Below, in pieces: positions 34,767-38,373 of a stretch of DNA of 64,000 bases. The stretch is taken from contig NZ_CP102830.1 of NCBI RefSeq assembly GCF_024730785.1, forward strand, positions 1,798,001 through 1,862,000, written 5' to 3'. The notes beneath the pieces were generated by a model. That model did no database searches. It had not been told where the DNA came from and saw only the letters and a list, made by a program, of their open reading frames with translations. Source of the DNA: Pseudomonas sp. LS44 (GTDB lineage: Bacteria > Pseudomonadota > Gammaproteobacteria > Pseudomonadales > Pseudomonadaceae). The position numbers were made by a program, and so were the translations under genes. Positions within the stretch are counted from its first letter, which is position 1; every line of letters begins with the position of its first letter.

Positions 34767-34782
34767 AGCAGAAACCATGCCA
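34767..34782 (-). promoter_or_regulatory. sigma-54-like -24/-12 element of lipase 1
   Basis: The minus strand reads TGGCATG-GTTT-CTGCT from 34782 to 34767. Consensus is TGGCACG-N4-TTGC(A/T); both invariant GG and GC doublets are present with the correct spacing. Predicted start is about 34756, 70 bases upstream of the lipase ATG. Confidence 0.65.
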
Positions 34783-34861
34783 GTGTGCTGTGCGGGAGGG
34801 CGTAGGGGCTCTAGCGTGAGCCCCGTGTCGAGAGGGGTGGAGCCAGTGCTGCTCAGGGGGT

Positions 34862-34876
34862 GTTACAGGCCGTCAC
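34862..34876. promoter_or_regulatory. Candidate enhancer-binding site of lipase 1
   Basis: GTTAC-AGGCC-GTCAC, a near-perfect dyad, centred about 88 bases upstream of the -24 GG. The same arrangement GTTAC-N5-GTAAC is perfect upstream of the foldase (36135-36149). A sigma-54 enhancer-binding protein of the CbrB/LipR kind is the likely ligand by analogy with P. alcaligenes. Confidence 0.5.
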
Positions 34877-34968
34877 GATGACTGCCCGGTCTGAAAGTGA
34901 CGTTCCCGTCCGCCACTTGGTTTTGCTCCCGACCAGTCGAAAGTTTGCTGGCCAGGAGCCGCCATCGT

Positions 34969-36003
34969 TCAGCTTTTCTTGTCCGCCTGCTGTCTGTGAA
35001 TCTGCTCAGCCGCTTCCAGGCGCATGCGCTCCTGTTCGTTGAAGCCGTCCTCGGCAAGGCGCTTGATCGTCGCGTGCTTGTCGGCCTCGCTCAAGCCGTC
35101 CTCGGCCTCGATGCGGGCTTTCTCTGCGCTGTAGGAGGCGACCCGCTGCTTCCAGGCTGCGCGTTGCTGATCGAGCACTTCCAGGCGGACGGTCGCCTCG
35201 TTGCCCACCAGTTGTTGGCGCAGCGCGCGGATCTGCTCTGGGCTGGCGCCTTGGGCCTGCAGTTCGGCGGTGCGGGCGTGTAGTTCGCCCTGCAGGGAGG
35301 GCAGCACGCTGTCTTTCACCTCGTCGGGCAGGCTGTCGCGCAGCCGGTCGATGGCGGCCCCTTTGACGTCGGAGGGCAGGCTATCGTCGCGCAGGATCGC
35401 CATGCGCTCGAGGTTGAAGCGGTTGTAGGCTTCTTCCTGGCCGAAGAATGCTGCGTGCACCTCGGGGCTGAAGACCCGCGCGCGCAGGTCGTGCGCCGCG
35501 GTTTCGCGGCGACGGATAGCATCGAGGTCGGCAAGCACCGGCAGATCGCGCTCCAGCAGTACCAGTTCACGTTTGTATTGCAGGTACTGCTCGAGTATCA
35601 CCAGCGCCTGGTCTTCGGCCGGTTGGTCGAGAACCGCGGCGATGTAGTCACGCAGGCGTTGGATGCTGGTTTTCATCGGCTCTTCGCCGATGGCGGCGAG
35701 GAAGTAGTCGAACAGATTGCGGATGTCCTGGCTGATCACCAGATTGCCGGCTTCGTCGACTTCGAGTCGTCCGTCGATTTCGGTACCGCGAAAGGATGGT
35801 GGCATCGGTGCGACCTTGGGCGGCAGGGGCGCGATACGAGGAGCTGTTTCGATTGGCGCCTGCGGGGCGCCGGGCGAGGTTTCCAGGCCTGTCGCGGGGG
35901 CGGCGGCAGTCTCTTGTGGCGCGGACGGAGTCTTCGGGAAATATAGGAAGGCAGCGATTGCGGCGATGAAGGTGATCGGCAACAGCACTAGCAATTTCTT
36001 CAC
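34969..36003 (-). CDS. lifO: Lipase-specific foldase (lipase chaperone)
   Basis: A 344-residue inner-membrane-anchored steric chaperone. GTG start at 36003 with AAGGA seven bases before it; [21 protein letters not shown] is the membrane anchor, then a Pro/Ala-rich linker (about 24-70). The chaperone motif Rx2FDY(F/C)Lx(A) is present as [10 protein letters not shown] at 95-104, followed by the long helical embrace of the lipase. It releases folded lipase for secretion. It is placed between lipase 2 and lipase 1 rather than after its only partner, and probably serves all three. The longer upstream frame was rejected. Confidence 0.95.
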
Positions 36004-36041
36004 AGGGCGGTCCTTGGGCTGATATCGAGCGCTAGCGAGGC

Positions 36042-36057
36042 AGCACAAGCCGTGCCA
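36042..36057 (-). promoter_or_regulatory. sigma-54-like -24/-12 element of the foldase
   Basis: The minus strand reads TGGCACG-GCTT-GTGCT from 36057 to 36042, a full match to TGGCACG-N4-nTGC(A/T) apart from one base. The predicted start near 36031 leaves a 28-base leader to the GTG start at 36003. It lies in the 180-base gap after lipase 2. Confidence 0.7.
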
Positions 36058-36134
36058 GGGGCTGGCAGGTGTGCGCGGAGCCCTTTGCGCCGGGCATCTG
36101 GCTGCTTTGGCGGGAAGCGAGCGAAATCGACAGG

Positions 36135-36149
36135 GTTACGGTGGGTAAC
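36135..36149. promoter_or_regulatory. Candidate enhancer-binding site of the foldase
   Basis: A perfect dyad GTTAC-GGTGG-GTAAC, centred 86 bases upstream of the -24 GG of the foldase promoter. It is the best copy of the element also seen before lipases 1 and 3. Confidence 0.55.
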
Positions 36150-36183
36150 GATGGGCGGGACGCGCTGCACCCCGCCCATTGGG

Positions 36184-37119
36184 TTAGAGGCCTGCGTTCT
36201 TCAGTCGGTTGGCGTGTTGGCGAAGCACGGTCAGCGGGTTGGTTTCGAACAGGCTGACCAGGCCGAAGTTGTGGTTGATTTCATCCAGATGGTTCATGCG
36301 GTAGTCGTCGCGAATCACCTGGCCGAGGTGCGAGGAACATTTGCCGACGGCGCCGTCGCTGGGAGCGCCGTTGAAGGCCAGGCCGGTGGTCGCCAGGAGC
36401 GCGTCGCTGGGATCCAGGGGGTTGGTCAGTGGGCTGGTGCCGCTCCAGGAGTAGTAGCGCACGCCATTCACCGAGTAGGCGCCCTCGCCGCAGGCGCTGG
36501 TCGGCACGCCCTGCGGATACTTGGCATTGAACACGGCCATGTTGGCGGGGGTTACGTCTGCCCAAGCCAAGGCCGCATCATGCGGATTGGAGCTGCCAGG
36601 GGTAGAGAGGACATCGAGCAGGGTGCCGATGGCGTTGAGCATGGCGCTGCGCAGCGGTGCCACGCCTGCCGAGAGGTCGCCGAGTACCGCCATCATCTCG
36701 GAGCCCTTGTTGACGCCGCCCACGGTGGTTACCGAGGCCACCAAGTCCGGGCGAACTGCGGCGACATAACGCGCTGTGGGCGCGCCCTGGCTGTGGCCGA
36801 TCAGATTGACCTTGGCCTTGCCGCTGATGGCGACGATTTGCTCTACCTGGGCCAGCAGTTGCTCGCCACGGATTTCGTTACCGTTCTGTGCGCTGACTTG
36901 GCTCAGGTACACGGAGGCGCCGGAGCGTCTCATGGCGTCAGGAACCCCGTACCAATAGCCGACGCCAAGGACGCGGTCGAAACCCATCCAACCGTGGCCG
37001 AGTACGATCGGGTATTTGGTCTTGGTGTAGCCGGAGTCGAACAGGTCAGCGTGCGCTTGGCCGGAAGTCGCCAGGGCGGTGCCGAGGGCGAGGGGAAGTA
37101 CCAGTTTGTTCTTTTTCAT
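36184..37119 (-). CDS. Divergent secreted lipase (lipase 2)
   Basis: A 311-residue paralogue with signal peptide (cleavage near AHA, 24). Triad Ser110, Asp255, His277 and the Cys210/Cys261 pair are kept. The oxyanion position equal to LipA Met16 is Trp44 (HGWMG), the residue after Ser is Gln111 (GHSQG rather than GHSHG), and the elbow is GHSQGAP with Ala113 instead of Gly. The Ca-ligand Gln is replaced by His (DEINHN). GHSQG occurs in family I.2 lipases, but the Trp is unusual, so altered substrate range is likely. ATG 37119 chosen over a longer frame. No sigma-54 element of its own: probably cotranscribed with lipase 3. Confidence 0.92.
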
Positions 37120-37164
37120 CGTTGCACTCTTGGGTTGTGGGTAAATGGCAGACCCTTGCATGCC

Positions 37165-37197
37165 CGGCTCATCCCGTCCGGTGGAAGGGATGAGCCG
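37165..37197. other. Hairpin between lipase 3 and lipase 2
   Basis: CGGCTCATCCC (37165-37175) pairs perfectly with GGGATGAGCCG (37187-37197). There is no T run, so it is more likely a processing or attenuation structure within a lipase 3-lipase 2 transcript than a strong terminator. Confidence 0.5.
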
Positions 37198-37242
37198 AAC
37201 ACATGGCAACAACGCAAGAGTGGAAGGGCCCGACCTGTGAGC

Positions 37243-38184
37243 TTACAGGCCGGCGTTTTTCAAGCGGTTGGCCTGCTGGCGATAGACGACCTTGGGATCG
37301 GTTTCGAACAGGCTGGTGAGGCCGAAGGCGTGGTTGACCTCGTCGAGGTGGTTCATCCGGTAGTCGTCGCGGATGGTCATGCCCAGGTGCGAATCGCAGG
37401 CGCCGACCAGGCCATCGTTCGGCGTGCCGTTGTAGGCGATGGACGTGAGCCCCAGGAGCGCGTCGCCAGCGTCGGCGGCATTGGTCAGCGGGCTGGTGCC
37501 GCTGAACGAGTAGTAGCGCACGCCGTTAACCACATAGGCGCCTTCGCCGCAGGCCGTGGTCGGCACGCCTTGCGGATGGCGGGCGTTGAAGGCGGTGATC
37601 CCGGCAGTATCGAGAGAGGCCAGCGCTGTGGCGGCATCCTGGGCAGTCCACGGATCCCCCGGCGAGAGGAAGTCGATGAAGGCCGCCAGCGCATTGTTCA
37701 CGTCGTTGAGGTAGCCCAGGGAGCCCTCCGGCTGGTTGGTGATCATGTCGGCCAGGGGTACGCCTTTGCTAGGGCCGGCGACGCTGGTAACCGATGCCAC
37801 GAGGTCCGGACGCACCGATGCGACATACCGCACGGTTGGCCCGCCATGGCTATGGCCGATCAAGTTGACCTTGGGCTGGCCGGTGATGGCGATGACCTCC
37901 TCGACCTGATCGAGCAGCTCTTCGCCGCGCAGCTCGGTGCTGTTCAACTGGCTGACTTCGGTCAAGCGCACGTCGGCGCCGCCCGAACTGAGTGCCAGCG
38001 GAATGCCGTACCAGTAGCTGACACCGAGGATACGGTCGAAACCGAGGACGCCGTGGGTCAGCAGAATCGGGTACTTGGTTTTGGTGTAGGTCAGTGGGTT
38101 TTCAAACAGGGCAGCCTGGCTCTGGCCAGAGGCTGCCAGGCAGGCGCCGAAACACAGGGCGAGTAGCGTTTTTTTGTTGTTCAT
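37243..38184 (-). CDS. Secreted lipase (lipase 3)
   Basis: A 313-residue paralogue with signal peptide (SQA, about 24). Ser112 in GHSHGG, Asp in PNDGLVGAC and His in MNHLDEVN form the triad; two cysteines flank as in LipA. The oxyanion Met is Val46 (HGVLG) but the following His113 is kept; the Ca-ligand Gln is His (DEVNHAF). The tail [14 protein letters not shown] is shared with the other two lipases. It is the first gene of the cluster and has a sigma-54-like element and upstream dyads. Confidence 0.93.
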
Positions 38185-38255
38185 GTGGCTCTCTCGAGGG
38201 GTTAGGGGTAGCGATCCTGTTCTTAATCTGTCCAGTCCCTGGATAGTCAGGCTCA

Positions 38256-38271
38256 GGCAGAAAACGTGCCA
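38256..38271 (-). promoter_or_regulatory. sigma-54-like -24/-12 element of lipase 3
   Basis: The minus strand reads TGGCACG-TTTT-CTGCC from 38271 to 38256, with both invariant doublets correctly spaced. The predicted start near 38245 gives a 60-base leader. A GAGAGAG Shine-Dalgarno sequence precedes the ATG. Confidence 0.7.
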
Positions 38272-38312
38272 TGCGCCTAAAAAATGGCGCGGACGCTCTG
38301 GCGCGAGGGTTT

Positions 38313-38373
38313 GTGACTATTGGGTCACGGGCATCACAGAGGTAGGGGTGGTTTGTTTGTTACAACTTGAAGC
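38313..38373. promoter_or_regulatory. Candidate upstream activator sites of lipase 3
   Basis: GTGAC-TATTGG-GTCAC (38313-38328) is a perfect dyad about 50 bases before the -24 element. Further upstream, GTTAC-AACTT-GAAGC (38359-38373) is a half-match to the GTTAC-N5-GTAAC element, about 96 bases before the -24 GG, roughly one helical turn further than in the other two promoters. Confidence 0.4.

Follow-up and report, generated by a model that had tools for sequence, protein, structure and literature searches.

A 64,000-nucleotide stretch of Pseudomonas sp. LS44 (contig NZ_CP102830.1, positions 1,798,001 to 1,862,000; hereafter the window) carries on its minus strand three lipase genes, lip1, lip2 and lip3, together with a gene for a lipase-specific foldase. 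Three of the four, namely lip3, the foldase and lip1, are preceded by a sigma-54-like -24/-12 element and, further upstream, by an upstream activating sequence (UAS), and lip2 is without such a unit of its own (Table 1). This trio of sigma-54/UAS sites is real and far from chance. From sequence comparison, the three sites are likely to function as sigma-54 promoters, each served by a single upstream enhancer of a type that is widespread before lipA in the family.

Table 1. Genes and promoter features of the lipase/foldase cluster (positions in the window; motifs read towards the gene)
Feature	Position	Strand	Evidence or sequence
lip1, lipase	33737..34684	-	PF00561; 1ex9 'lactonizing lipase', E 2.8e-142; in the tree closest to relatives' single LipA-type lipases
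lip1 -24/-12, sigma-54-like	34767..34782	-	TGGCATGGTTTCTGCT; sigma-54 matrix score 25.1
lip1 UAS	34861..34876	-	GTGAC-N5-GTAACA; right half 84 bp before TGG
Lipase-specific foldase (Lif)	34969..36003	-	PF03280, E 7.4e-54 (ORF 34969-36048); 9g8u_B 'Lipase chaperone', E 1.6e-35
Foldase -24/-12, sigma-54-like	36042..36057	-	TGGCACGGCTTGTGCT; 15/16 identical in G302
Foldase UAS	36134..36149	-	perfect dyad GTTAC-N5-GTAAC, then C; right half 82 bp before TGG
GC-rich hairpin without T run	36151..36179	-	between lip2 stop and foldase UAS
lip2, lipase, separate clade, without own UAS/sigma-54 unit	36184..37119	-	1ex9, E 2.3e-111; tree
lip3, lipase, third clade	37243..38184	-	1ex9, E 3.2e-118; 90% to G302; tree
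lip3 -24/-12, sigma-54-like	38256..38271	-	TGGCACGTTTTCTGCC
lip3 UAS	38358..38373	-	GCTTC-AAGTT-GTAACA; right half 92 bp before TGG

The genes lie in the order lip3-lip2-foldase-lip1. Two related genomes carry clusters of the same kind, arranged as lip3-foldase-lip1 (G302) and lip2-foldase-lip1 (G027), and the three lipases fall into three separate clades of the tree, where lip1 of the window sits on a long branch, apart from lip1 of G027 and G302. The foldase contains the Lipase_chap domain that defines the Lif/LipB/LipH foldases, and its N-terminus is hydrophobic when the translation is inspected by eye. We placed its start at the GTG at 36003, the TTG at 36048 in the open reading frame (ORF) list falling within the foldase promoter; for lip2, the sequence gives an ATG start at 37119.

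The initial annotation had described GG and GC dinucleotides at the correct spacing at three minus-strand sites, and direct reading agreed: GG-N10-GC is present in all three elements, TGGCATG-GTTT-CTGCT before lip1 (34782-34767), TGGCACG-GCTT-GTGCT before the foldase (36057-36042) and TGGCACG-TTTT-CTGCC before lip3 (38271-38256). The sigma-54 consensus is GG-N10-GC in a TGGCAC-like/TTGC-like context, which all three elements display, with the first T of TTGC replaced by C, G and C, respectively. Under the usual spacing rule, which we assume to apply here, transcription would start at approximately 34756 for lip1, 36031 for the foldase and 38245 for lip3. When the window was scanned with TGGCAYG-N5-TGC, there was no match on the plus strand and there were three on the minus strand, which are these same elements, 54, 87 and 98 bp upstream of start codons of the cluster. 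Across the 4.46-Mb genome, the pattern occurred 28 times and its backwards-read control 21 times, so that by itself the -24/-12 pattern shows hardly any enrichment.

As for the UASs, the perfect GTTAC-N5-GTAAC dyad noted earlier for the foldase was found at 36135-36149, the one place in the genome where it occurs, matching on either strand (the control pattern had one match per strand), and the GTTAC-N5-GTCAC noted for lip1 is, read towards the gene, GTGAC-N5-GTAACA. What had been taken for a half-site before lip3 proved to be a full site, GCTTC-N5-GTAACA (38358-38373), whose left half GCTTC also precedes lip3 of G302 and lip2 of G672. A GTGAC-N6-GTCAC inverted repeat was also seen by eye between the lip3 UAS and the lip3 -24/-12 element (window 38313-38328). 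The three units thus have the form GTTAC/GCTTC/GTGAC-N5-GTAAC and match the lipA-type layout, i.e., a GTTTC-like half, N5 and GTAACA with the right half 80-96 bp before TGG, as scored with matrices derived from relatives only; this layout is kept before lipA in about 100 relative loci. We then combined the 28 sigma-54-like sites with the 38 genomic matches to GYKNC-N5-GTAACM, a pattern that was widened to take in the three sites but whose core is backed by the relatives. Only three same-strand pairs were within reach of each other, all of them in the lipase cluster (82, 84 and 92 bp), while 0.0025 pairs at 76-96 bp were expected by chance, given the pattern widened to fit the three. The initial annotation had asked whether the dyad is equally frequent elsewhere; with a unique perfect dyad and only these three UAS/-24/-12 pairs in the genome, this check did not refute the interpretation.

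To score such units without using the cluster itself, we built weight matrices for the UAS (31 rows) and the -24/-12 element (32 rows) from lipase upstream regions of 32 nonredundant relative loci, drawn from a set of 46 same-genus foldase loci. The three cluster genomes (this genome, designated G000, with G027 and G302) were excluded, as were four lipases without a strict -24/-12 element (L059, L061, L065 and L072) and eight near-duplicates among the remaining 40. Every position on both strands of the window was scanned, with spacing free within 76-100. The three units ranked first to third (lip1 37.3, lip3 24.4 and foldase 19.8), and the fourth rank scored -1.7. The absence of a unit at lip2 was likewise confirmed, the top score upstream of that gene being -17. 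Chance matches in a GC-rich genome might still be invoked: a loose sigma-54 pattern has 127 matches genome-wide, as opposed to 56 when read backwards, and one of the 127 lies within lip1 (TGGCATTCCCTCTGC, 34511-34497). That match, however, scores -1.7 in the full model, an instance of the loose pattern arising by chance, whereas the wide gap below the three top-ranked sites, their unique pairing and their conservation in relatives leave chance with a probability close to nil.

We also examined conservation in 127 loci, made up of 46 same-genus loci, 80 family loci and the window; the family loci were drawn from among the matches listed (148 of 398 genomes with matches), and further loci exist beyond this sample. 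The counts omit L001, whose lipase is the same as that of L093, and L103, an orphan foldase. A unit scoring >5 preceded the first lipase in 107 of the 127 loci. Since the 32 training rows lie within the 107, the corresponding figure for nontraining first lipases is 75 of 95, some of which nearly duplicate training rows or one another (L215 and L216 come from one genome). Positive loci span seven genera (g1, g38, g40, g45, g48, g51 and g52), and three of them are without a good UAS (L102, L206 and L228); g55 has one borderline locus without a UAS. The 20 loci lacking a unit comprise 17 loci of genus g41 (L211-L227, 16 genomes), where no unit was found although the lipase-foldase arrangement is kept, together with L065 (at a contig end), L072 (58% identical) and L205. 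The neighborhood thpR-lipase-foldase-DoxX-MltF is common to many, not all, of 49 loci compared.

UAS-to-TGG spacing in the 104 loci with a UAS score >5 was 91-96 in 97, 80-84 in 7 and 85-90 in none, i.e., two classes one helical turn apart. When 64 nonredundant promoters with spacing 91-95, which may include the window's own lip3, were aligned on the right half, the UAS appeared as a single block, CGTTTC-N5-GTAACA, the only feature to stand out beyond this block being an A-tract some 40 bp upstream of TGG. The left halves were GTTTC (42), GTTCC (8), GTGTC (6), GCTTC (4), GTTAC (3) and GTAGC (1), and the perfect dyad of the foldase is therefore a rare form, not the family form. Together, the conservation in 107 of 127 loci, the cluster-free model and the spacing classes one helical turn apart support the earlier sigma-54/UAS interpretation.

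The foldase's own unit is far less widespread. Only 2 of the 128 foldases in the 127 loci have one, in this genome (19.8) and in G302 (25.8), with no score above -13.9 among the remaining 126; in loci of genomes other than the three with the cluster, foldases lie about 12-155 bp behind a lipase (180 in L206), always without a unit. The lip1 unit, by comparison, is present in all three cluster genomes (scores 37, 42 and 51). The G027 lip2 unit shares GTTAC, GTAACC and GTGCT with the foldase units of G000 and G302, and GTAACC was found in none of 103 other scored lipase promoters; the foldase unit may thus have originated as a lip2 promoter. In G672, a lip2-foldase pair contains the foldase with which that of the cluster groups (100/97); near this pair (L151), we looked for the usual lipase-locus neighbors and found none. 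Since G027 and G000 group together within the cluster clade (93/67), a single gain followed by loss in G027 is a possible history. Recent duplication as the source of the alike promoters is unlikely, given the three separate lipase clades, matches of no more than 20 nt between the lip1 and lip3 upstream regions (some of them at the start codon) and no listed match between either region and that of the foldase.

The same resemblance to the G027 lip2 unit, together with the lack of a unit at lip2 here, would also fit a stranded lip2 promoter, left over after lipase rearrangement, with the foldase expressed by read-through from lip3-lip2. However, the foldase gaps of G000 and G302 have diverged in spacer (33/75 identical) and leader (19/37), while the UAS (13/16) and the -24/-12 element (15/16) are kept, as under selection, albeit in one genome pair. 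A GC-rich hairpin without a T run, which we do not call a terminator, also stands between lipase and unit at the equivalent position in both genomes, and the whole 180-nt lip2-foldase gap of the window folds at -70.0 kcal/mol. We consider an inactive leftover improbable, and a unit that is leftover by origin could still be active. A second GC-rich inverted repeat without a T run was seen by eye between lip3 and lip2 (window 37166-37196) and could attenuate the lip3-lip2 transcript.

We then considered which activator might bind these enhancers. Reviews name CbrB and LipR for lipA (PMC8871633 and PMC12134079). In PMC12134079, this is CbrAB for Pseudomonas aeruginosa, with promoters P1 and P2 before lip/lif, and LipQR for Pseudomonas alcaligenes, in line with the earlier statement that lipase of the latter depends on sigma-54 and LipQR; both systems are also mentioned in PMC5583355. 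In this genome, a putative CbrB, a response-regulator-type sigma-54 activator, is encoded directly before crcZ, which is preceded by TGTTAC-N16-GTAACA-N15-GTAACG and then TGGCACGCGTTCTGC. The half-site GTAACA is common to this crcZ promoter and the lipA-type UAS. Across 30 crcZ loci for 37 genomes, 29 of the 30 promoters read had half-sites near -124, -103 and -81, and the 30th had them shifted by about 11; the lipA right half, at about -92 or -82, is whole helical turns away from them. CbrB (LipR) is therefore favored as activator, with the same hexamer on the same face as in crcZ though at different spacing, and its role at the lipase/foldase units is plausible rather than proven.

The published CbrB consensus is TGTTAC-N12-14-GTAACA-N15-19-GTAACA (PMC8871633), and the window UASs, with their N5 spacing, share only the half-site with it. 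This leaves room for the view that the units are real sigma-54 promoters bound by another activator, acting as a dimer on the compact N5 inverted repeat. The conserved lipA block is indeed a single N5 inverted repeat in the 64 promoters, unlike the published CbrB site, and Sigma54_activat matches number 17 in the genome, 13 having E <1e-50. Yet the right half is the crcZ hexamer in the same helical register, CbrB and LipR are the regulators that the reviews give for lipA, and, of 49 loci, only 3 showed a relative of any of 10 of the 13 activators close to lipA, and not consistently one and the same. We regard another activator as unlikely, though less so than an inactive leftover. CbrB itself is described as binding nonpalindromic subsites, apparently as a monomer at first (PMC6296734).

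Several observations weigh against working, CbrB-driven promoters with a foldase unit among them. On its own, the UAS pattern shows no genomic enrichment (38 matches versus 67 for the backwards-read control). The foldase unit scores lowest of the three, it is missing from the sister genome G027, and its -12 TGCT occurs in just 4 of the 103 other lipase promoters scored, though every one of the 30 crcZ promoters read has it. In the promoters with spacing 91-95, we looked for a third CbrB subsite before lipA and found none, there being one N5 half-site pair, and PMC8871633 judges the short lipA spacing insufficient for CbrB. Finally, g41 is without the lipA unit although CbrB is present in 16 of 16 g41 genomes, and all of the crcZ promoters read from g41 (10) retain their half-sites. 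CbrB is thus not always in control of lipA, and lipase control seems to differ in g41. Loss of CbrB as the cause was ruled out, as CbrB and crcZ were each present in 37 of 37 genomes (16 of them g41).

If the preferred reading of three CbrB-responsive sigma-54 promoters holds, CbrB (LipR in P. alcaligenes) would bind the enhancers under carbon limitation and, via looping, let sigma-54 RNA polymerase open the promoters. One signal would then fire three separate transcription units, lip3 (with lip2 by read-through), the foldase and lip1. Because the foldase, placed between lipases, would fire from its own promoter, helper supply need not rely on read-through, and one foldase may serve up to three lipases. 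The initial annotation spoke of one regulon with separate doses; this finds support at the level of anatomy only, with units at lip3, the foldase and lip1 and none at lip2, and assignment to CbrB/LipR is plausible. To the broader scenario we give an even chance: that the foldase was freed from a lipase operon and given an enhancer-driven sigma-54 promoter, probably from a neighboring lipase gene, making it one helper for three lipases under one signal, and that the family lipA enhancer is a compact N5 inverted repeat requiring CbrB to bind unlike the three-subsite model.

The CA motif AANAANAA is a Crc/Hfq target and was considered as a second control layer. Among genes matched from residue 1, it accompanied 100 of the 108 lipase starts and none of the 58 foldase starts; redrawing synonymous codons for the lipase protein sequence, however, already predicts 99.1 of 108, giving no evidence for such a layer. 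A second, diverged foldase (33% identical) is encoded elsewhere in this genome (L103 6577-7647; G000:C1 ~2933576-2934646). No relative of lip1-lip3 was found in 15 kb around it, which makes it an orphan foldase, and neither a strict -24/-12 element nor a dyad was found upstream; an adjoining 438-amino acid ORF (L103 4981-6297) looks, by eye, like three tandem RidA-like repeats.

The lipA switch, with sigma-54 and CbrB/LipR, is of a known Pseudomonas kind, and the separate foldase unit appears to be new: a limited survey of titles and abstract openings, outside which some primary lipA/CbrB work lies, turned up no account of a foldase driven by a sigma-54/UAS promoter of its own. The compact lipA UAS block bears on how CbrB binds lipA. 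Foldase supply limits the yield of active lipase in industrial hosts, and for this reason practical use of a natural layout with a separately fired foldase is conceivable.

Five tandem lipase-foldase loci (L155, L191, L197, L205 and L206) resemble the window in having several lipases and foldase at one locus but differ in that none of their seven inner lipases and six foldases has a unit. The first lipase has one in L155, L191 and L197, with a weak UAS (score 2) in L206 and none in L205. L197 (G656) consists of four tandem lipases and then one foldase, and L155 (G482) of two consecutive lipase-foldase pairs, each locus with a unit at the first lipase only. The CbrB-activated crcZ/crcY promoters, like the window units, have TGTTAC/GTAACA half-sites upstream of TGGCACG-N4-NTGC in the same helical register; however, crcZ here has TGTTAC-N16-GTAACA-N15-GTAACG, whereas promoters of the lipA type have a single GTTTC-N5-GTAACA pair without a third subsite. 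P. alcaligenes lipA (LipQR) and P1 of P. aeruginosa lip/lif (CbrAB) have, as here, a sigma-54 promoter and UAS before the lipase (PMC12134079). In contrast to the one lip/lif operon of P. aeruginosa with its P1 and P2 (PMC12134079), lip3, the foldase and lip1 of the window each have a unit.

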